Of a stretch of DNA of 64,000 nucleotides, positions 56,605 to 64,000 are shown one piece after another. The translations under genes and the position numbers were made by a program. Source of the DNA: Nitrosopumilus cobalaminigenes (lineage in GTDB: Archaea > Thermoproteota > Nitrososphaeria > Nitrososphaerales > Nitrosopumilaceae); contig NZ_CP026993.1 of NCBI RefSeq assembly GCF_013407145.1, positions 558,001 to 622,000 of the forward strand, read 5' to 3'. A model generated the notes under the pieces. That model searched no databases. It was not told where the DNA came from and was given only the letters and a program-made list of their open reading frames with translations. The stretch's first letter is position 1; each line of letters starts with the position of its first letter.

Positions 56605-56790
56605 TCACTCTCGTTTTTTACTTCTCGGCTTTGTTCTTAATACTGCCTTACAGCAAATACATCGTGTATCATCTACTTTCAAAAATATGCCGCAAAAAGT
56701 ACATCTTTTTTGTCCAATTTCGTACCTAATTTTGTTTGGAACTGGTTCTGCCTTGTGCATTTGACAAATGCCTCTACATGTTCTACCCAT
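56605..56790 (-). CDS. small double zinc-ribbon protein
   Basis: A 61-residue protein, two CxxC pairs (CTFCGIFLKVDDTRCICCKA) and an N-terminal CRGIC. I set the start at the ATG 56790 because GGGGGTGA, a good Shine-Dalgarno, lies 5 nt upstream. Its start overlaps the end of the second TFB gene by 8 bp, so it is translated from the same mRNA and is a candidate partner of that TFB. Confidence 0.8.
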   Translation of the reverse strand: MGRTCRGICQMHKAEPVPNKIRYEIGQKRCTFCGIFLKVDDTRCICCKAVLRTKPRSKKRE

Positions 56791-57694
56791 TGATTTCACC
56801 CCCTACTTTTTCTTTGATTTCTTTGGAGCGGTCTCTGATTGTTACTGCACTAATTCCTGATGCTTTAGAAATTTTCAATTGAGTGATTTTTTCATGATTT
56901 ATCACTGATGCTAAATTAATTGCAGCTGCTGCCATTGCCATTGGGTTTTTACTAGTTGAGACTTTTTTCTTTGATGCATGCCCTAGAATTTTAAATGCCA
57001 GTCTTTCTGTTTTCTCTGTTAGTCCAACTGCCTTTGAGACTCTTGTAACAAATTCATTTGGGTTATATGCATCTGGGTGCAAATCTAATTCATTTACTAG
57101 GAATCTGTAGATTCTTTGTAGGTTTTTCTTCTTAATGTTTCCTGCATTTGCAACGTCTTGTAATGTCCTTGGGGTATCTGTTAGTCTACATGTGATGTAA
57201 ACTGTAGCACAAAGCATTGCATTTGTTGATCTCCCTGCAAGTATTTTTTTAGCAGCTATTTTTCTAAACAAGTATGCTGTCTCTTCCACAACAGATTCAG
57301 GCAAACCTAATTTTGAGCTAATCCCATCTAACAATGTAAATGCTTTTTGAAATGATTTAACGGAAATTGCAGAACGACTGTTTCTATCCCACATTCTTAA
57401 ACGATAAAACATTCTTCGATTTTCATTTGATAGTGATTTACCTGTGGCGTCTTTATCTTGTGCTTGCATGATTGTTGATAGTCCTCTATCTGCCATCTTC
57501 AATGATGTCTTCATCCCTACTCTGGAATTACTTTGATATTCTTCTCCACTGAGTCCTGTTGTTTCTGAACTAATGTCGATTGACTTTTCATTTGAAACTG
57601 CTCCGCAGTTACTACATGCAATTTCTCCTGTATAACCATCTGTTATCATCAGATTTTTTTTACAGTCTTTTTGATGTACTAATTCTGCTATCAT
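56783..57694 (-). CDS. divergent transcription factor B paralogue
   Basis: A 303-residue TFB homologue. Two cyclin folds are preserved, the second with LKISKASGISAVTIRDRSKE, the BRE-binding HTH. The N-terminal zinc ribbon is odd: the first Cys of the first pair is replaced (HQKDCKKNLMITD in place of CxxC), while the second pair CSNCGAV is intact. The B-reader EWR-F motif of the other TFB is missing (TTGLSGEEYQSNSR). This suggests a specialised TFB with altered start-site selection. It is transcribed divergently from the 57845 operon, with one TTAGCACTAG box 19 bp before its likely TATA. Confidence 0.9.
   Translation of the reverse strand: MIAELVHQKDCKKNLMITDGYTGEIACSNCGAVSNEKSIDISSETTGLSGEEYQSNSRVGMKTSLKMADRGLSTIMQAQDKDATGKSLSNENRRMFYRLRMWDRNSRSAISVKSFQKAFTLLDGISSKLGLPESVVEETAYLFRKIAAKKILAGRSTNAMLCATVYITCRLTDTPRTLQDVANAGNIKKKNLQRIYRFLVNELDLHPDAYNPNEFVTRVSKAVGLTEKTERLAFKILGHASKKKVSTSKNPMAMAAAAINLASVINHEKITQLKISKASGISAVTIRDRSKEIKEKVGGEING
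56796..56803 (-). promoter_or_regulatory. Shine-Dalgarno site of the small zinc-ribbon gene
   Basis: GGGGGTGA on the minus strand, 5 nt before the ATG at 56790, inside the last codons of TFB. It decides the start of the zinc-ribbon protein. Confidence 0.75.
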
Positions 57695-57741
57695 GACTAA
57701 ACTGTGGTTTTAAATTATTTAAGGCGGAAAGATATTCTAAT

Positions 57742-57751
57742 CTAGTGCTAA
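57742..57751 (-). promoter_or_regulatory. TTAGCACTAG box of the divergent TFB gene
   Basis: TTAGCACTAG read on the minus strand, ending 19 bp before the AT-rich TATA-like TTAAATAATTTA (about 57722-57711) of the TFB promoter. It is the exact inverted copy of the box at 57785-57794. Confidence 0.75.
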
Positions 57752-57784
57752 TCTGAACTTAATTCATTATTATAAATAGAATTT

Positions 57785-57794
57785 TTAGCACTAG
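57785..57794 (+). promoter_or_regulatory. TTAGCACTAG box of the 57845 operon
   Basis: TTAGCACTAG, 18 bp upstream of the TATA-like TTTAAATATAAT (57813-57824), which lies about 25 bp before the leaderless ATG at 57845. Together with 57742-57751 it makes an inverted pair, 43 bp apart centre to centre. Confidence 0.8.
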
Positions 57795-57844
57795 TCAATT
57801 TTTCAATCTTTTTTTAAATATAATATTTGAATAATATCATTCAA

Positions 57845-58204
57845 ATGCCTCATATTGTAATCGATAAAAAAATCAATTTGTTTGATTTTGCAAGTAGTTT
57901 TGCTCCTATTTTTCAAAAATCCCCCCTAATCAAAATTTCAACAATTTATGTTGAAAAGAATGCCTTGACTGCTTTGTTACCTGTGGTTGTAATTGATGAA
58001 AATCATCAGGAGTTCTTTATACAAATTTCTACAACTTTGAAAAAATCTACTATTCGTTTGCTTCCTTTAACAGATCCGATAAAAACTGATACCGTAAAAT
58101 CCACCTTGGCTTTAGTTTATTATCAAATAAAAAAATGGGATAAAGACATAACTGTTACGAAAACAAATCTATCTGAATATTTGAAGGCAGTTGTTGAAAT
58201 ATGA
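57845..58204 (+). CDS. hypothetical protein, first gene of the boxed operon
   Basis: A 119-residue soluble protein with alternating strand/helix pattern (MPHIVIDKKINLFDFASSFA; STIYVEKNALTALLPVVVID; VKSTLALVYYQIKKWDKDIT). No family is recognised. The start is the ATG at 57845, at the expected distance from the TATA-like box, rather than the TTG at 57827. Its stop overlaps the SRPBCC gene by 4 bp. Confidence 0.72.
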   Translation: MPHIVIDKKINLFDFASSFAPIFQKSPLIKISTIYVEKNALTALLPVVVIDENHQEFFIQISTTLKKSTIRLLPLTDPIKTDTVKSTLALVYYQIKKWDKDITVTKTNLSEYLKAVVEI

Positions 58205-58656
58205 AATCATTTTATTTATGCAGACACAGTATGTTGGACCGGAATGATCTTTTTGAAATTAGTACTAATGTAGATAATTTTCATAATGTGATGCCAAATT
58301 ATTTTAAATCTATGGATGTAATTGAGGATAATACTTCTGAAAAAATTGTTTTAGAAAAAATATCTTTTCTAGGAAAAACTCTTGATGTGAAAACAAAGCA
58401 TATTGTTTTACCGCCAAATCTTCATGGGGTTTTTATCTTATCTGGCCCGCTGAGTGGTACTTCATTTATTGAAAATTATGAATCTGATGACATGGGCACA
58501 AAAATTATTATTCAAGTCAGTTTGCAAATTAATGGATTTTTAAAATTTGTTCCTTTAATTGAAAAACTTATTTCAAAAAAAATGAACAATGTTATGAATG
58601 AGTTTATCATTTCTGCAGAAAGTTTCTCTCAAAGACACTTATTTTATAAAAGTTAG
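58201..58656 (+). CDS. SRPBCC (START-like) protein
   Basis: A 151-residue protein of the SRPBCC/polyketide-cyclase fold. It opens with RNDLFEISTNVDNFHNVMPN, the usual first helix/strand pair, and continues with long antiparallel strands (EKIVLEKISFLGKTLDVKTK; GTKIIIQVSLQINGFLKFVP), ending in an amphipathic helix. It binds a hydrophobic ligand in a cavity. SRPBCC proteins also accompany FAD oxidoreductases in bacterial CarH/LitR-controlled clusters. It overlaps the upstream gene by 4 bp. Confidence 0.82.
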   Translation: MKSFYLCRHSMLDRNDLFEISTNVDNFHNVMPNYFKSMDVIEDNTSEKIVLEKISFLGKTLDVKTKHIVLPPNLHGVFILSGPLSGTSFIENYESDDMGTKIIIQVSLQINGFLKFVPLIEKLISKKMNNVMNEFIISAESFSQRHLFYKS

Positions 58657-58662
58657 CACTAT
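58653..58662 (+). promoter_or_regulatory. TTAGCACTAG-like box of the FAD oxidoreductase gene
   Basis: TTAGCACTAT, 19 bp upstream of TATAAATAA (58682-58690), which lies 28 bp before the leaderless ATG at 58711. A degenerate second half, TTGGCACCTG (58672-58681), follows 19 bp downstream and abuts the TATA. Confidence 0.8.
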
Positions 58663-58710
58663 TACGATATATTGGCACCTGTATAAATAATCCTTTTTAG
58701 AAAATTATTC

Positions 58711-60057
58711 ATGTCTGAGCCTGTTGTAATCGTTGGAGCTGGGGTTGGAGGATTAACTACTTCTGCATTACTGTCTCAAAATGGCTATAAAGTAATGATT
58801 CTTGAAAAATCTGCACAGTTGGGTGGGAGAACTGCATCTATGGTATTCAGAAACCATGTTTTGGATAATGGGTTCCATATTATGCCTTTTTATAAAAAAT
58901 CTGCAATTTTTGAAATTTTAAAAAAATTAAAAATTGATTCAAAATTGAAACTTGCAAAAGTTGATGACATTGCATTTTATTCTGATGATGGATTTCATGT
59001 GTATCCTAAAGGAATGTTAGATTTATTGAAGCTTTCATTATTGCCTCTAAAAAGTAGACTCAAACTTTTAAAGATTCTTCTTCCTTTGGCGTTTACCTCA
59101 ATTTCTAAGAGTGAATCTTGGGATGATACTCCATTAACAAAAATCACAAAAAATTTAGATTCTGATACAAATGCTTTTTTTGAGGCAATTTGCATGTTAG
59201 CTTTTGCAGATACTGCAGATCACATTTCTTTAGGTGAATTTACTAGAACTATTATTCGAGCTAATCCTTTCAAAGGGGGAACTAGTGAATTTGCATATCC
59301 TGATAATGGTGGTTATGATTCAATTTGTAATGTCTTATCTGATTATATTTTAGAAAATAATGGGGAAATTCATACAAAACAATCTGTCAATAAAGTAATT
59401 GTTGAAAATTCAAAAGTGAAGGGTGTGTTTATAACAAATCCAAATGGTGAAGACACGTTTATCTCTACAAAATGTGTTGTTATTTCATATCCCGCATATT
59501 CTGCATTAAATCAACTTTTTGATAAAAACATCATCTCTTCAGATTTTATTAAAAAAATTAATCAATTGAATAAAACTACTTCTGTGGTAGAAGTTCATTT
59601 TGCATTAAAATCTAAAATTGATTCACGTCAAGTTGTTTTTCCTGTGGGCAAGCATTATACTACTAAAGGGATTTTTTTTATTTCAAATATTACCCCCTCT
59701 GTATCTCCAAAAGGGGAACATTTGATTATTGCAGGAACTCCTGTATTGCCTGAAGATACTGAAAATCCACTAAAAATTAAAGAAATTGTTACACGAATGA
59801 AACAAGAAATTTCTTCAATTTATTCTCAGTTTGAACCTTCATTAATTTGGGAACGTCCGATGGCATGGAAATTGGTAGAATCTGTAGTTAAAGAGCCTGG
59901 AAAAGTGTGGAAATCAAAAATGCCTCATCACATTCCTGGGATTGATGGTTTGTTCTTTGTAGGAGATTCTACAATTAGTTATGGGATAGGCACTGATTCA
60001 GCTGCCCACAGTTCAATCCTATGTTATCCTAAAATTGAATCTTTTTTGAAAAATTGA
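58711..60057 (+). CDS. phytoene desaturase-like FAD oxidoreductase
   Basis: A 448-residue FAD enzyme of the CrtI/amine-oxidase superfamily. It opens with VVIVGAGVGGLTTSALLSQN and EKSAQLGGRTASM. The C-terminal FAD contact is GLFFVGDSTISYGIGTDSAA, and the middle has IIRANPFKGGTSEFAYPDNG. No membrane segment is seen. The substrate is probably a hydrophobic polyene or isoprenoid. The location beside a CarH-like regulator and an SRPBCC protein suggests a light-protective pigment or lipid step. That is inference. Confidence 0.9.
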   Translation: MSEPVVIVGAGVGGLTTSALLSQNGYKVMILEKSAQLGGRTASMVFRNHVLDNGFHIMPFYKKSAIFEILKKLKIDSKLKLAKVDDIAFYSDDGFHVYPKGMLDLLKLSLLPLKSRLKLLKILLPLAFTSISKSESWDDTPLTKITKNLDSDTNAFFEAICMLAFADTADHISLGEFTRTIIRANPFKGGTSEFAYPDNGGYDSICNVLSDYILENNGEIHTKQSVNKVIVENSKVKGVFITNPNGEDTFISTKCVVISYPAYSALNQLFDKNIISSDFIKKINQLNKTTSVVEVHFALKSKIDSRQVVFPVGKHYTTKGIFFISNITPSVSPKGEHLIIAGTPVLPEDTENPLKIKEIVTRMKQEISSIYSQFEPSLIWERPMAWKLVESVVKEPGKVWKSKMPHHIPGIDGLFFVGDSTISYGIGTDSAAHSSILCYPKIESFLKN

Positions 60058-60900
60058 TTATGCAGTTCTAATGATCTTTGGTAGTTCTTCTAAATTTGGG
60101 TCCGATACTATCTTAGCATCAAATTTTGGAATTTTTTCTGATTGCATTGCATAACCTCCAACTAAAATTGGAATGTTGCATTCATCTCTAATTTTTCTTA
60201 CTAATCTTTGTCCTGCAGAAATATTATCTGGCAATGTAATTGAAACAAACACAATATCTGGATTATTATTTTCAATAAAATTCATTATTGATTCAGTTGG
60301 AAGTGATGTTCCCATATTGTATACTTTAAATCCTTTAATTGAAAGATATGTCTCTAACACATCACATCCTAAATGATGTTCTTCTCCTAGTGGTACGCAT
60401 ATCAAAATCTTTTTCTTATTTCCAGTACCTGATACTCTGTCCATAATTATTCTGACTAATGTTTGAGCGATATTGCTTGCAACATGTTCTGTTGCAATGC
60501 TGATTTTATTATTTGCCCAATGTTCTCCTATATCGTACATGACCGGTTTTAGGATTTTATCAAAGAAATCTGCAGCATTAAAAATTTTAACATATTCTTT
60601 GTATATTTTTACACACTCTTCAATATTACCTTCAGTTAATTTTTTGTATAATTGCTGTTTGGATTTTTTTGAAGCTTCTTCTCTTTTTTTAATATCTTTA
60701 GGATTAAAAGAAGCAAGAACTGACAACACTTTTGGATCACTTCTATATTCTATTGGAATATCGTCTTTTACAACATCAGACGCTTTGCCCAGATATTTTA
60801 CAATTTCTTGCTTTGATGTGCTCTTTTTTGAATCCCAGACACTTTTGACTAGGTATAGATATTGATCAGATTTTACTTTTTTAGCTCTAATGTACACCAT
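60058..60900 (-). CDS. B12-binding regulator of CarH/LitR type (candidate photoreceptor)
   Basis: A 280-residue protein. The N-terminal about 45 residues (VYIRAKKVKSDQYLYLVKSV) recall a small beta domain found at the start of some transposases and are not MerR-like. A helical bundle (about 85-160) contains GEHWANNKISIATEHVASNI, an exact W-x9-EH motif, which in CarH caps the adenosyl group. The B12-binding domain follows with CVPLGEEHHLGCDVLETYLS (ExHxxG, lower axial His), VSITLPDN and PILVGGYAM. The likely output is DNA binding controlled by adenosylcobalamin and light. Its own promoter carries two boxes. Confidence 0.85.
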   Translation of the reverse strand: MVYIRAKKVKSDQYLYLVKSVWDSKKSTSKQEIVKYLGKASDVVKDDIPIEYRSDPKVLSVLASFNPKDIKKREEASKKSKQQLYKKLTEGNIEECVKIYKEYVKIFNAADFFDKILKPVMYDIGEHWANNKISIATEHVASNIAQTLVRIIMDRVSGTGNKKKILICVPLGEEHHLGCDVLETYLSIKGFKVYNMGTSLPTESIMNFIENNNPDIVFVSITLPDNISAGQRLVRKIRDECNIPILVGGYAMQSEKIPKFDAKIVSDPNLEELPKIIRTA

Positions 60901-60930
60901 GTGATTATTTTTCCAAAATGAGTATATAAC

Positions 60931-60939
60931 TAATGCTAA
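60931..60939 (-). promoter_or_regulatory. second box of the B12 regulator promoter
   Basis: GTTAGCATTAG on the minus strand (60940 to 60930), one mismatch in the core from the consensus, next to the TATA-like TATATA (60929-60924) of the regulator gene. It lies 19 bp from the other box, as a direct repeat. Confidence 0.6.
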
Positions 60940-60948
60940 CTATGATTT

Positions 60949-60958
60949 ATAGTGCTAA
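60949..60958 (-). promoter_or_regulatory. TTAGCACTAG-like box of the B12 regulator promoter
   Basis: TTAGCACTAT on the minus strand, 18 bp before the TATA-like GTTATATACT (60930-60921), which lies about 25 bp before the leaderless start at 60900. This predicts autoregulation. Confidence 0.78.
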
Positions 60959-61051
60959 TTACTGAATCTCTTTTTTTAATTTATCCATCACATCATTTGT
61001 CATTTTTAGCAAATTATTGATGTGTGTGTCTCCTGCAAAGTTTCTTGTCAT
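60959..61051 (-). CDS. possible mini-protein (30 aa)
   Basis: A frame from the ATG at 61051 gives MTRNFAGDTHINNLLKMTND plus ten helical residues. It lies upstream of the B12 regulator, and its stop touches the operator region. It is weak as a gene, because the composition is only mildly protein-like. Confidence 0.3.
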   Translation of the reverse strand: MTRNFAGDTHINNLLKMTNDVMDKLKKEIQ

Positions 61052-61120
61052 GCTATATTATTTCCAAAATTGGACATAACAGGTAGTATGTTATCCTGTA
61101 TGACAGTCAAATTTTTGAGC

Positions 61121-62056
61121 CTATGAATACTCATTCCCAATGAGGGCAAATGCGTGTTTTGAAACTCTCAAATTGCCAAACTTTTCAGGCTGAATTATCT
61201 TTGCTAAGATTTCAACTCCTTCAACTGTTCTGATGCTTGGTTTACTAAAAAATGAGTTTGCGTCTACAGCAAAAACTTTGTTGTTTTTTACCGCGTTTAA
61301 TGAATTCCAAGATTCATTATTTTTGAGAATTTCAAAATATTCTTTGATTGTTCTTTTTGTATCAAAACCACATGGCATCAAAATAATGATATCTGGATTT
61401 GATTCTATTATTTCCTTGATTTCTAATCGTCTTGAATGTTCACCTGTTTTACTAATCATGTTTTTACCTCCTGCAATTTCAACCATTTCTGGAACCCAAT
61501 GACCTGCAGTAAAGAATGGTTCAATCCATTCTATTGCCAGCACTTTTGGTTTATCATTTGTATTATTTTGTCTGATGCGTGAGATTCTTTTTTCTAGTGA
61601 TTCTGTGATGTTTTTTGCTTTTTGATTGCATTCTAGAATTTCCCCTATTTTCATTACTGATTCTATGATCTCTTTCATGTTGTGGGGATCCATTGAATGA
61701 ATAATTGGTTTTGTTTCCAAAATTTTTACTGCTTTATTGACTTGGTTGGTATATGCAGCACAAACTTCACACGTTTCTTGTGAAATTATCAAATCTGGAT
61801 TGGCTTTTTTCAAATTTTCTTCGTCTAAAATAAAAACATCTTTACCTTCACTTAGTAATTTACAAGTTGTAGTGTCAATTTCTTTACTAGTTAATTTTTC
61901 AGAATCAACAACCGTGTTGATAACTTTGGGTTTTAAACATGCATCTTGTGGATATTTACATTCATGTGTTACTCCAAACAGTTTATCTTGTAACTCTAAT
62001 TCATATATCAATTCAGTGGCGCTAGGCAAAAATGAAACAATTCTATTTACTGTCAT
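61121..62056 (-). CDS. BtuF-like corrinoid-binding protein without signal peptide
   Basis: A 311-residue periplasmic-binding-protein fold of the BtuF family. It opens with RIVSFLPSATELIYELELQD and FGVTHECKYP, which line the corrinoid site in BtuF, and continues with PDLIISQETCEVCAAYTNQV. There is no N-terminal hydrophobic stretch or lipobox, so the protein seems cytoplasmic. In these archaea such proteins may bind cobalamin or its precursors inside the cell. The position beside the B12-binding regulator fits a cobalamin-linked locus. Confidence 0.85.
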   Translation of the reverse strand: MTVNRIVSFLPSATELIYELELQDKLFGVTHECKYPQDACLKPKVINTVVDSEKLTSKEIDTTTCKLLSEGKDVFILDEENLKKANPDLIISQETCEVCAAYTNQVNKAVKILETKPIIHSMDPHNMKEIIESVMKIGEILECNQKAKNITESLEKRISRIRQNNTNDKPKVLAIEWIEPFFTAGHWVPEMVEIAGGKNMISKTGEHSRRLEIKEIIESNPDIIILMPCGFDTKRTIKEYFEILKNNESWNSLNAVKNNKVFAVDANSFFSKPSIRTVEGVEILAKIIQPEKFGNLRVSKHAFALIGNEYS

Positions 62057-62154
62057 GATTTATTTTGGAATTGATCCTTTAAACACCATACGTTAACTAA
62101 CCATCAATTTTTCTTATACGGCAAGTTAATAGGCACATTTCAGGCACAAAAATC

Positions 62155-63312
62155 ATGTCTTCTGATTCTCAAACCATTCGAAAAGCAATTTTGTCAAAGT
62201 GGCATGAGTCTCTTTCCAAACATGGTAATTTGTTTTCATCAGATTCTATTAGTGGTTCTAGTCCTCCATCAGTTTTTGTTGGCTCTTATGATTATCCCAA
62301 AGTCTTTGTTGGTCCTATGGTTCCCCCAATACATGGAGATACTAGTCTTCTTGATAGTCCTGAAAAATGGAAAGGAAAATCTTTAGAAGATATTGTAAAC
62401 TTTAGACTAAATTTAGTTAGAGGCATTCAAAAAATCCCTATTGATCAAACTGGAGGCCGATATATTGAAAACCTTCAAGAAGTTGCAATGTCATCAAAAC
62501 CCATTGACTCTGATTTAATTTTTCAAAAATCAACTGGTCCAAACATTGCACTAGATGGTGAAAGTGCACCTTTTGGTCCTATTGGAGAAATCAAATCTGC
62601 AAAATTCACTGGAACTACCTCTGTAAAGTCTATCGAAAAAACATACTATGATAAAGATTTGAAAGCACAAGATGCTGTTTTGAATTTATATAATTCTGGA
62701 ATTGAAATTTCAAAAATTCAAAAATGTTTCAGTATTGGAATGTTGGGACAAAAAAGAAAATTGGTTCCTACTAAATGGAGTATAATTGCAACTGATGATA
62801 TAATTTGCAAATCCCTTATTGATGATATACTTGATTATAGTTTAATTGATTCCCACAAAGTTTTTTCATATGAACATTTAGGAAATATTTTCACTATTGT
62901 ACTATTTCCACACAGGTGGGTTTATGAAATGATTGAAGCTTGGTATTCTAACGGTGTATTGGGATTTGGGTCTGATTATGAGGATGCTCGTGGAATTGAT
63001 CATCCTCCAGCAATTGCTGGTGCCTATTTTGCAGCAAAATTGGGTGTTTTAGAATATTTGAAAAAGAATAAGATTCAAGCAGGAGTTGTTATTTTCCGAG
63101 AAATTCGTCCAGAATATGCTATACCTGTTGGTGTCTGGCAAGTTAGAGAGGGGATTCGTGAGGCAATGAATCAAAACTGTCTAGTTGCTGATAATTTTGA
63201 ACATGCTTTATCTTTAGCATCAAATAAAATGAGTATCAGTAAATCTGAATGGCTCTCTCATGGAAATATTGTTGAATTGATAAGACAGAAAACTATCTCT
63301 GATTTTTTTTAA
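62155..63312 (+). CDS. nreA: NreA-type archaeal DNA repair protein with PIP box
   Basis: A 385-residue Nre-family protein involved in DNA-damage resistance with PCNA. FVGSYDYPKVFVGPMVPPIH is the family opening motif. The region LGQKRKLVPTKWSIIATDDI is the second conserved block. The C-terminus QKTISDFF is a PIP box (Q-x2-h-x2-F-F) that binds PCNA. The ATG at 62155 is preceded by an AT-rich promoter (TTCTTATACGGCAAG). Confidence 0.93.
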   Translation: MSSDSQTIRKAILSKWHESLSKHGNLFSSDSISGSSPPSVFVGSYDYPKVFVGPMVPPIHGDTSLLDSPEKWKGKSLEDIVNFRLNLVRGIQKIPIDQTGGRYIENLQEVAMSSKPIDSDLIFQKSTGPNIALDGESAPFGPIGEIKSAKFTGTTSVKSIEKTYYDKDLKAQDAVLNLYNSGIEISKIQKCFSIGMLGQKRKLVPTKWSIIATDDIICKSLIDDILDYSLIDSHKVFSYEHLGNIFTIVLFPHRWVYEMIEAWYSNGVLGFGSDYEDARGIDHPPAIAGAYFAAKLGVLEYLKKNKIQAGVVIFREIRPEYAIPVGVWQVREGIREAMNQNCLVADNFEHALSLASNKMSISKSEWLSHGNIVELIRQKTISDFF

Positions 63313-63851
63313 TATAACTTCTTTGATAACAGTTTAAACAAATTTCCTGGATGTGGGTTTGAATACAATAGAAAATAAGTTTGGCTTGCAAGATATGTGT
63401 CATTAAATCGATAAATTATTGGTTCAATCTCTGCCAAAATTTCGCCCACCGAAATTCTCTTGTTTTTAAATTTATCAAGTAAATCAAAAAATTTTTCTTT
63501 TTCTTGTTGATTGAAATTATTTGAGAAATGTCCAAAAATATGCAATATGACATTACTATGTTTTTTTATTGTGGGTTCACTTTCTAAAGATTTTTTCAGA
63601 TGCATCTCGTATTCTGTGAGAATTTTATTGAAATCTACTTTTTTATTACTTGCAACTAAGTTGCCCAATATTTTTAATTCCTCCTGATTATGTGCCATGA
63701 TCATGTATTTGTTGATGGCCTGAAACGAAACTAAATTATTTATTTTCTTATTTTTTTTAACATCTTCAAATCGTTCAATCACATAATCTATGACATCTTT
63801 TTCAGTAATTGTTTGAGTTTCTATGCTGAATATATCTTGTTTCTCACTCAC
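63309..63851 (-). CDS. hypothetical helical protein
   Basis: A 180-residue predicted helical protein (EKDVIDYVIERFEDVKKNKK; KILTEYEMHLKKSLESEPTI; KFFDLLDKFKNKRISVGEIL). The reading frame overlaps the NreA stop by 4 bp, convergent. A TATA-like GCTTATATGTAAAT precedes the start. No family is recognised. Confidence 0.7.
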   Translation of the reverse strand: MSEKQDIFSIETQTITEKDVIDYVIERFEDVKKNKKINNLVSFQAINKYMIMAHNQEELKILGNLVASNKKVDFNKILTEYEMHLKKSLESEPTIKKHSNVILHIFGHFSNNFNQQEKEKFFDLLDKFKNKRISVGEILAEIEPIIYRFNDTYLASQTYFLLYSNPHPGNLFKLLSKKLY

Positions 63852-63902
63852 TTTTCAAGTTCTTTTCAATTTACATATAAGCAAAATCTTGTTTTAGACT
63901 GA

Positions 63903-63912
63903 TTACCACTAG
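63903..63912 (+). promoter_or_regulatory. TTACCACTAG box, distal
   Basis: TTACCACTAG, one mismatch from the consensus, 34 bp upstream of the next copy. It lies in the shared gap before the gene at the right edge. Confidence 0.55.
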
Positions 63913-63936
63913 CTTTTTCATCTAATTCTGGTAAAA

Positions 63937-63946
63937 TTACCACTAG
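63937..63946 (+). promoter_or_regulatory. TTACCACTAG box of the right-edge gene
   Basis: TTACCACTAG, 19 bp upstream of TTAAATATAAT (63966-63976), the TATA-like box of a gene that would start at the ATG 63995 as a leaderless message. Spacing is the same as at the four other promoters. Confidence 0.65.
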
Positions 63947-63954
63947 TCTATCAT

Positions 63955-63964
63955 TTAGCACCAG
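63955..63964 (+). promoter_or_regulatory. TTAGCACCAG box next to the right-edge TATA
   Basis: TTAGCACCAG, one mismatch from the consensus, directly next to the TATA-like box; 18 bp from the 63937 copy, as a direct repeat. The same two-box arrangement is seen at the B12 regulator promoter. Confidence 0.6.
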
Positions 63965-63965
63965 C

Positions 63966-64000
63966 TTAAATATAATGAGTGAAAAAAATCATCAATGAAA
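63966..64000 (+). promoter_or_regulatory. promoter and first codons of a gene leaving the window
   Basis: TTAAATATAAT (63966-63976) stands about 25 bp before an ATG at 63995-63997, of which only ATG AAA lies inside the window. An earlier ATG at 63975 stops after seven codons. The product is unknown, but the box arrangement ties it to the B12 regulator group. Confidence 0.45.

Follow-up and report, generated by a model that had tools for sequence, protein, structure and literature searches.

What ties a recurring 10-bp word to the TATA boxes that follow it? This question is raised by a 64,000-nucleotide stretch of the Nitrosopumilus cobalaminigenes genome, hereafter the window, which comprises bases 558001-622000 of a single contig of 1,563,356 bases. 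The word has the consensus TTRSCACTAK, and its copies point at a gene, with a TATA-like box downstream; in ammonia-oxidising archaea it recurs at a set position before a dozen genes. One of the genes so preceded encodes a B12-binding regulator that, on sequence comparison, very probably binds the word. The word is likely the operator half-site of this regulator in a proposed light switch that resembles the bacterial photoreceptor CarH and may repress in the dark.

The element and its promoters

A sequence-only reading of the window had proposed five element sites at one fixed distance from TATA boxes. All five stand: exact copies of TTAGCACTAG at 57742-57751 (-) and 57785-57794 (+), and one-mismatch copies at 58653 (+) and 60949 (-), both TTAGCACTAT, and at 63937 (+), TTACCACTAG. 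The distance from element end to TATA-like box is 19, 19, 19, 19 and 18 bp, and every copy faces its gene. The second copies noticed at three of these promoters are present at 58672 (TTGGCACCTG), 60930 (-; TTAGCATTAG) and 63955 (TTAGCACCAG), with start-to-start periods of 19, 19 and 18 bp. The remark that the window holds no other copy is true for promoters but overlooked an extra copy of TTACCACTAG at 63903. The gene at 63995, described as unseen, can now be seen to encode a secreted protein with PGWVKNNAGWW repeats (L031:2496-3398) and is called the NAGWW gene below. Here, L-numbers denote extracted DNA stretches with their own coordinates and G-numbers denote genomes, G000 being the source genome. 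The promoters of the window and the genes that they serve are as follows (FAD, flavin adenine dinucleotide).

60949..60958, minus strand: regulator promoter, distal copy TTAGCACTAT, kept in 66/66 orthologue promoters
60930..60939, minus strand: regulator promoter, proximal copy TTAGCATTAG, 19-bp period, abuts TATA
60922..60929, minus strand: regulator TATA-like box TTATATAC, close before the start codon
60058..60900, minus strand: B12-binding regulator, 280 aa (Pfam B12-binding_2 and B12-binding)
57742..57751, minus strand: TFB promoter, distal copy TTAGCACTAG, without a clear proximal copy
57715..57722, minus strand: TATA-like box of the TFB gene, TTAAATAA
56783..57694, minus strand: TFB paralogue, predicted regulon member (Pfam TFIIB)
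57785..57794, plus strand: hypothetical/SRPBCC operon, distal copy TTAGCACTAG
57814..57821, plus strand: hypothetical/SRPBCC operon, TATA-like box TTAAATAT
57845..58656, plus strand: two-gene operon of a 119-aa hypothetical and an SRPBCC-like protein, predicted regulon members (SRPBCC weak, Polyketide_cyc E 0.08)
58653..58662, plus strand: FAD-oxidoreductase promoter, distal copy TTAGCACTAT, overlaps the SRPBCC gene end (profile match E 4.8e-7)
58672..58681, plus strand: FAD-oxidoreductase promoter, proximal copy TTGGCACCTG, abuts TATA 58682-58689
58711..60057, plus strand: FAD-dependent amine oxidase/desaturase-like enzyme, predicted regulon member (Pfam Amino_oxidase E 6e-28)
63903..63912, plus strand: NAGWW gene promoter, third, farther-upstream copy TTACCACTAG
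63937..63946, plus strand: NAGWW gene promoter, distal copy TTACCACTAG (profile match E 3e-7)
63955..63964, plus strand: NAGWW gene promoter, proximal copy TTAGCACCAG, 18-bp period, TATA 63966-63972
63995..64000, plus strand: start of the NAGWW gene, 300-aa secreted protein running past the window end, predicted regulon member

A set of 205 distinct tandem promoters shows the architecture of the element. In the distal position the word reads TT[A/g][G/c]CACTA[G/T]; in the proximal position it reads TT[A/g][G/t/c]CA[C/t][T/c]A[G/t] and is directly followed by TTAAATA or TTATATA. The TATA hexamer lies 18-21 nt past the distal word, and the second copy, often abutting the TATA box, is found 18-19 bp downstream of the first. 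Because the word is asymmetric, two copies form direct repeats. In most promoters 27-31 nt separate the end of the proximal word from the start codon; leaderless transcripts are therefore probable, with the proximal word covering the B recognition element (BRE). The distal word spans about -58 to -48 relative to the start codon. By copy content, 42 promoters hold both words, 44 the distal word only and 11 nominally the proximal word only. In these 11 cases the TATA-like string lies 39-55 nt from the start, versus the usual distance of about 27-32, and they therefore look like artefacts in which a distal copy is followed by an AT-rich spacer. Judging from these promoters, the distal copy is the obligatory one, and the proximal copy is optional. 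In 12 of the 14 orthologous regions read, the TFB promoters carry the distal word alone, matching at 9/10 or 10/10 positions, with the site beginning 51-57 nt before the start.

The third, farther-upstream copy recurs at some promoters of relatives, notably those of the NAGWW gene, at offsets of 43-47 nt before the TATA box.

Enrichment and conservation of the element

Matches to the word with at most two mismatches number 66 in the window, against 39.7 expected (standard deviation 6.0), and none of 100 shuffles reached 66. TTRSCACTAK is present 152 times in 374 kb of DNA taken from 17 genomes (mean 6.4, maximum 30, for 300 permutations of the motif) and is followed in 58 cases by a TATA hexamer starting 17-28 nt downstream (mean 0.12, maximum 3, for 300 permuted motifs), although these loci were picked around the regulator, so both counts measure clustering there and not genome-wide density. 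Word-to-TATA offsets in the same DNA concentrate at 0-3 and 18-21 nt. This count of TATA distances was among the checks that the sequence-only reading had suggested, as was a profile scan of the genome and its relatives.

For the scan, a profile was built from the sequences of 70 promoters of other genomes, with the source genome excluded. The window yielded exactly three strong tandem matches (E 5e-9, 3e-7 and 5e-7), with the sites of the TFB gene and the hypothetical operon ranking next (E 0.07-0.08) and the remainder at background. The whole source genome yielded four strong tandem matches (E 5.6e-8 to 1.2e-5; next E 0.03), all within 10.5 kb (616.6-627.1 kb). Strong matches are thus confined to one cluster, and the element is conserved in orthologous promoters. 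At a strict threshold, the tandem promoter was detected at the NAGWW gene in 47 loci (49 hold the gene), at the regulator in 59 (67), at the small membrane protein described below in 13 (14) and at the FAD enzyme in 24 (44). Nre and BtuF, genes inside the cluster that served as internal controls, had no tandem promoter in 15 loci each. A loose pattern, CACTAK-N17-21-TWWAWA, was not enriched genome-wide (28 versus 61 for a reversed control); a single word with a TATA box is therefore no proof alone, and the weight rests on conservation and the tandem copy.

Predicted members of the regulon

The design continues beyond the window, where three more such promoters lie 5-6.5 kb past its end. The one at L031:7571 (-), with the sequence TTAGCACTAG-N9-TTATCACTAG-TTAAATA, serves a membrane protein/epimerase operon; L031:7573 (+) is its divergent partner, and L031:8643 (+) serves the small membrane protein. 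On sequence, the predicted members in the window are the regulator itself, the TFB paralogue, the hypothetical/SRPBCC operon, the FAD amine-oxidase/desaturase-like enzyme and the NAGWW protein. Predicted members past the window are the membrane/NAD-epimerase operon, a unit starting at L031:7631 and the small membrane protein. The unit from L031:7631 leads toward a pyrimidine-dimer glycosylase gene at L031:8295 (Pyr_excise E 3e-27).

Two further sites in the source genome were noted. A weaker tandem, ATGGTACTAG-N8-TTATCACTAG, at G000:C1:372129 (-) (L220:1629 -), stands before a TATA-like string and a UspA-family gene, which is preceded by a 17-codon reading frame and is a possible further regulon member. 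An exact TTAGCACTAG at G000:C1:216587 (region 216587-216720; L032:4588-4720) has a TTAAATA box 19 bp downstream and is followed by a hairpin, ATTCTTCAA...TTGAAGAAT, and a T-run, an arrangement that could represent a small RNA under the operator. The 216587 match, which falls in the 3ʹ end of a DedA-like gene, was left out of the count of regulon promoters.

The B12-binding regulator as probable reader of the element

The regulator is the candidate whose distribution matches that of the element. The tandem word stands in the regulator's own promoter in 66/66 orthologues (42-90% identity), including those of Nitrosarchaeum and Nitrosotenuis, with a 19-bp period in 65/66, and the word is found in 0/11 promoters of paralogues (37-41% identity). 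Among distant homologues from other genera and families, 25 of the 40 sampled have the tandem word (score of at least 15/20). A homologue with 34% identity, in a genome of 51% guanine plus cytosine (GC), has TTGGCACTAG-N8-TTAGCACTAG before its TATA box, and a 64% GC genome has the word ahead of an operon whose last gene is a regulator homologue. Tandem, TATA-phased copies are kept at orthologous promoters in several families, from 33 to 66% GC.

The same association is evident across 61 genomes. The profile reaches E<=4e-6 in 26/26 genomes with a regulator orthologue, and E 1e-5 is reached by 0/35 others. The corresponding Fisher values, 8e-18 overall and 1e-9 within the genus, overstate independence because the genomes are related, a point to be set against the assignment. 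The best of the 35 orthologue-free genomes are G041, with a match on a 3-kb contig, ahead of a gene that looks like the NAGWW gene in its visible start, and G053, where the match is the promoter of its own 34% homologue. Furthermore, five of the 26 genomes with element and regulator have no TFB orthologue at E<=1e-80 (G051, G008, G005, G019 and G050); G051 is one contig and 99% complete, and G008 consists of seven contigs, 99% complete with 9% contamination. Because the TFB is missing where the element and the regulator persist, the element tracks the B12 regulator and not the TFB.

These sequence comparisons argue for one regulon with fixed spacing and orientation and a single factor, as the sequence-only reading had supposed, and point to the B12-binding protein, one of its two candidate binders, as an autoregulated reader.

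Domains of the regulator

Residues 83-275, approximately, form a CarH-like cobalamin-binding sensory domain, with a four-helix bundle and a Rossmann fold, that matches the cobalamin domains of CarH/LitR and of photocobilins. Foldseek aligns it with the sensory domain of TtCarH at E down to 7e-13 (template-modelling score by target about 0.8), and phmmer relates the regulator to CarH at E 9e-10. The best NCBIfam match is the CarH equivalog, at 66.5 bits against a cut-off of at least 400 and over residues 78-275 only. Both signature motifs are present. Wx9EH (W128-ANNKISIAT-E138-H139), the motif of the adenosyl pocket and dimer interface, aligns with CarH and is at least 90% conserved in 42 homologues; in the cobalamin-binding motif ExHxxG (E173-E-H175-H-L-G178), E173 and H175 are invariant in the same homologues and G178 is at least 90% conserved. 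The paralogues keep ExHxxG and have lost Wx9EH; they look inactivated and may, in analogy to CarA beside CarH, be relatives that do not depend on light. Their promoters (L160-L170, upstream 75 bp) share a different block around TACTCACCAAGGTGCGTAAT, about TACTCACCAAGGTGCGTAATCGGATTAAATA.

The N-terminus is of another kind. AlphaFold2 models the regulator with an overall predicted local distance difference test score of 87.5 and its N-terminus, at a local score of about 90, as three antiparallel strands (residues 2-9, 12-23 and 28-39); a MerR-type winged helix-turn-helix is not present in residues 1-40 of the model. The N-terminal domain has no match to a Pfam or NCBIfam family, structure searches with it gave no Foldseek match at E<0.6 and no VIA match with Z of at least 5, and residues 1-52 have no match in plasmids. 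A suspected likeness to the N-terminus of a transposase was not confirmed. The N-terminus is strongly conserved, with 19 of 86 positions invariant in 28 proteins down to 40% identity; R5, K7, Y14, Y16 and W22 are among its well-kept residues. Of 300 genomes sampled across the class, 114 have it, representing 23 of 69 genera. From its position and conservation, the modelled beta-sheet N-terminus is the putative DNA-binding part. A bilin-binding globin-like domain is absent, the regulator ending at residue 280, just past the cobalamin domain.

A proposed light switch and its alternatives

In the proposed switch, the regulator would autoregulate and control a few genes, some of them with light- and ultraviolet (UV)-damage functions. 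Its beta-sheet N-terminus would read the asymmetric 10-bp word, and at least two subunits, joined via their CarH-like cobalamin domains, would occupy two head-to-tail words 18-19 bp apart, the second landing on the BRE next to the TATA box, on a good or a degenerate word. In the dark, an oligomer bound to adenosylcobalamin (AdoCbl) would sit on the operator and keep TBP/TFB off. Light would break the cobalt-carbon bond, the oligomer would fall apart, and photoprotection genes, the regulator and the accessory TFB would be expressed. The operator, its spacing and conservation, its co-occurrence with the regulator, and the fold and motifs of the sensory domain are observed. That light is the signal, acting through AdoCbl, is probable from the sequence of the sensory domain and the gene content; whether the bound state is the repressed one is an evenly balanced call.

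Gene content lends support to a light or UV role but does not prove it. The photolyase gene is absent from the source genome; in relatives, it occurs in 12/26 regulator-bearing genomes versus 1/35 regulator-free (p 5e-5), and six photolyase-operon promoters have the distal word at the same distance. Several observations weigh against the proposed switch. The association of photolyase with the regulator weakens to p 0.06 within the genus. In the sensory domain, His132 of CarH is replaced by Ala129. Moreover, an obligatory distal copy with an optional proximal one suits an activator better than simple occlusion.

Activation by the same regulator through the same operator, the sign that the sequence-only reading had thought probable, is accordingly the strongest competitor, a reading with a real though less than even chance. 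Distal binding would recruit TBP or TFB to weak promoters, in light or as the AdoCbl form, and the proximal, BRE-overlapping word would limit expression at high regulator levels. The fixed phase of the obligatory distal word, 18-21 bp upstream of the TATA box, fits this scheme; archaeal regulators that bind upstream of BRE/TATA generally activate (PMC4158304), and in Sulfolobus promoter activity requires the UV motif, which lies upstream of weak BREs (PMC5817253). However, the characterised CarH proteins of PMC9304148 are repressors that bind DNA in the dark, as AdoCbl oligomers, a dark-bound activator would make photolyase genes dark-induced, and many promoters also hold a copy on the BRE, where a clash with TFB is expected. 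Dark repression is slightly favoured over activation.

The regulator could also read the element in response to cobalamin status or to oxidative or alkylation stress, which is unlikely. A gene for a BtuF-like binding protein adjoins, and B12-binding domains also serve enzymes and corrinoid proteins, but BtuF lacks the element in all 15 loci, both CarH signature motifs including Wx9EH are conserved, and UV-damage genes lie in or near the regulon.

It is very doubtful that another DNA-binding protein is the reader, with the regulator merely sharing the regulon. An example is the small zinc-ribbon protein encoded at 56605-56799, whose gene is in the TFB operon and keeps the element in the TFB-less G005 (L074:18606). 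Its family has many members in regulator-free genomes, no close orthologue is among the matches listed for G019, which has element and regulator, and the element occurs in the regulator's own promoter in every orthologue. Still less credit is due to the divergent TFB (56783-57694) as reader, whether of an alternative BRE, as the sequence-only reading had proposed, or of an upstream element. In its favour, the gene is divergent to one copy and keeps its place beside the regulator, and the proximal copy overlaps the BRE, yet the obligatory copy lies 18-21 bp upstream of the TATA box, outside the BRE, and the five genomes without the TFB orthologue, among them the near-complete G051 and G008, have both element and regulator. 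Chance, or a core-promoter habit of AT-rich genomes, has next to no probability: one-mismatch words are common in the source genome (120 versus 86 for a reversed control) and the loose word-to-TATA pattern is unenriched, but the tandem copies conserved across families of differing GC content, the four strong matches in a single cluster and the spacing test speak against it.

Comparison with known systems

CarH/LitR proteins are AdoCbl-dependent photoreceptor repressors of bacteria such as Thermus, Myxococcus and Bacillus (PMC9304148, PMC8156234). CarH homologues are defined by Wx9EH together with the B12-binding motif and have been described as spread across bacterial taxa (PMC8156234); CarH operators are direct repeats reaching the core promoter at the -35 element (PMC9304148). 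The archaeal regulator shares with CarH/LitR the C-terminal cobalamin sensory domain, Wx9EH, ExHxxG and a direct-repeat operator reaching the core promoter. Unlike CarH/LitR, it is without the MerR helix-turn-helix, has a predicted beta-sheet N-terminus and does not conserve His132 of CarH; its 10-bp words recur at an 18-19 bp period in an archaeal TATA/BRE promoter, whereas CarH has contiguous 11-bp TnnACA repeats. Among solved structures, the sensory domain matches a photocobilin best in sequence (8j2x, E 1.3e-14), a group that includes SasPcob and AbDPcob; in contrast to these, the regulator is a compact, DNA-binding-like protein of 280 aa with no bilin-binding domain.

Among archaeal systems, the Sulfolobus UV motif A(N)TTTC with TFB3 likewise belongs to a damage regulon in which a non-palindromic word lies upstream in the promoter and one of the targets is a TFB paralogue, although the word, its position (-44 to -39 in Sulfolobus) and the copy number differ (PMC5817253). 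The reader of the Sulfolobus motif was unknown in that study. TFB3 is described there as without a DNA-binding domain, whereas the TFB paralogue here keeps its cyclin repeats. The activators Ptr2, TFB-RF1 and TrmBL1/Tgr also use a fixed site upstream of BRE/TATA (PMC4158304); unlike them, the regulator described here has a CarH-type sensory domain and a second copy on the BRE, and no related DNA-binding domain was found in it. The literature searched, which leaves most subscription journals outside, yielded neither an archaeal B12 photoreceptor nor the TTRSCACTAK motif, and the word 'archaea' is absent from a database-mining paper on cobalamin photoreceptors (PMC11796333) and from the photocobilin paper (PMC10979010).

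There is a somewhat better than even case that ammonia-oxidising archaea have a class of B12-dependent photoreceptor regulators of their own. Its members would couple a CarH-type light sensor to a new beta-sheet DNA-binding fold and act directly on TBP/TFB promoters via a head-to-tail operator, one copy of which lies on the BRE; a TFB paralogue would form a second tier of the response. If so, this would be a route by which these abundant organisms could switch on sunlight-damage genes, and it would come with a sensor that has a name, an operator that is defined and a list of targets, each of them testable. B12 photoreception would then reach into archaeal transcription by way of a different DNA-binding fold, a matter of interest for optogenetics, and the well-conserved operator could serve the study of regulator action on TBP/TFB promoters.

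Neighbouring genes

The small zinc-ribbon protein gene (56605-56799, -) overlaps the TFB gene, and its family has up to 19 members per genome in the genus. In relatives, a second TFB paralogue (39-41% identity) lies beside a second NAGWW-repeat protein near the cluster (L064:1-2200, L065:17252-19710, L066:14643-17136). A DUF1722 (YbgA-like) gene at 63309-63851 (-), whose own promoter is without a clear copy on its strand, adjoins the cluster; in E. coli this family is a neighbour of photolyase.

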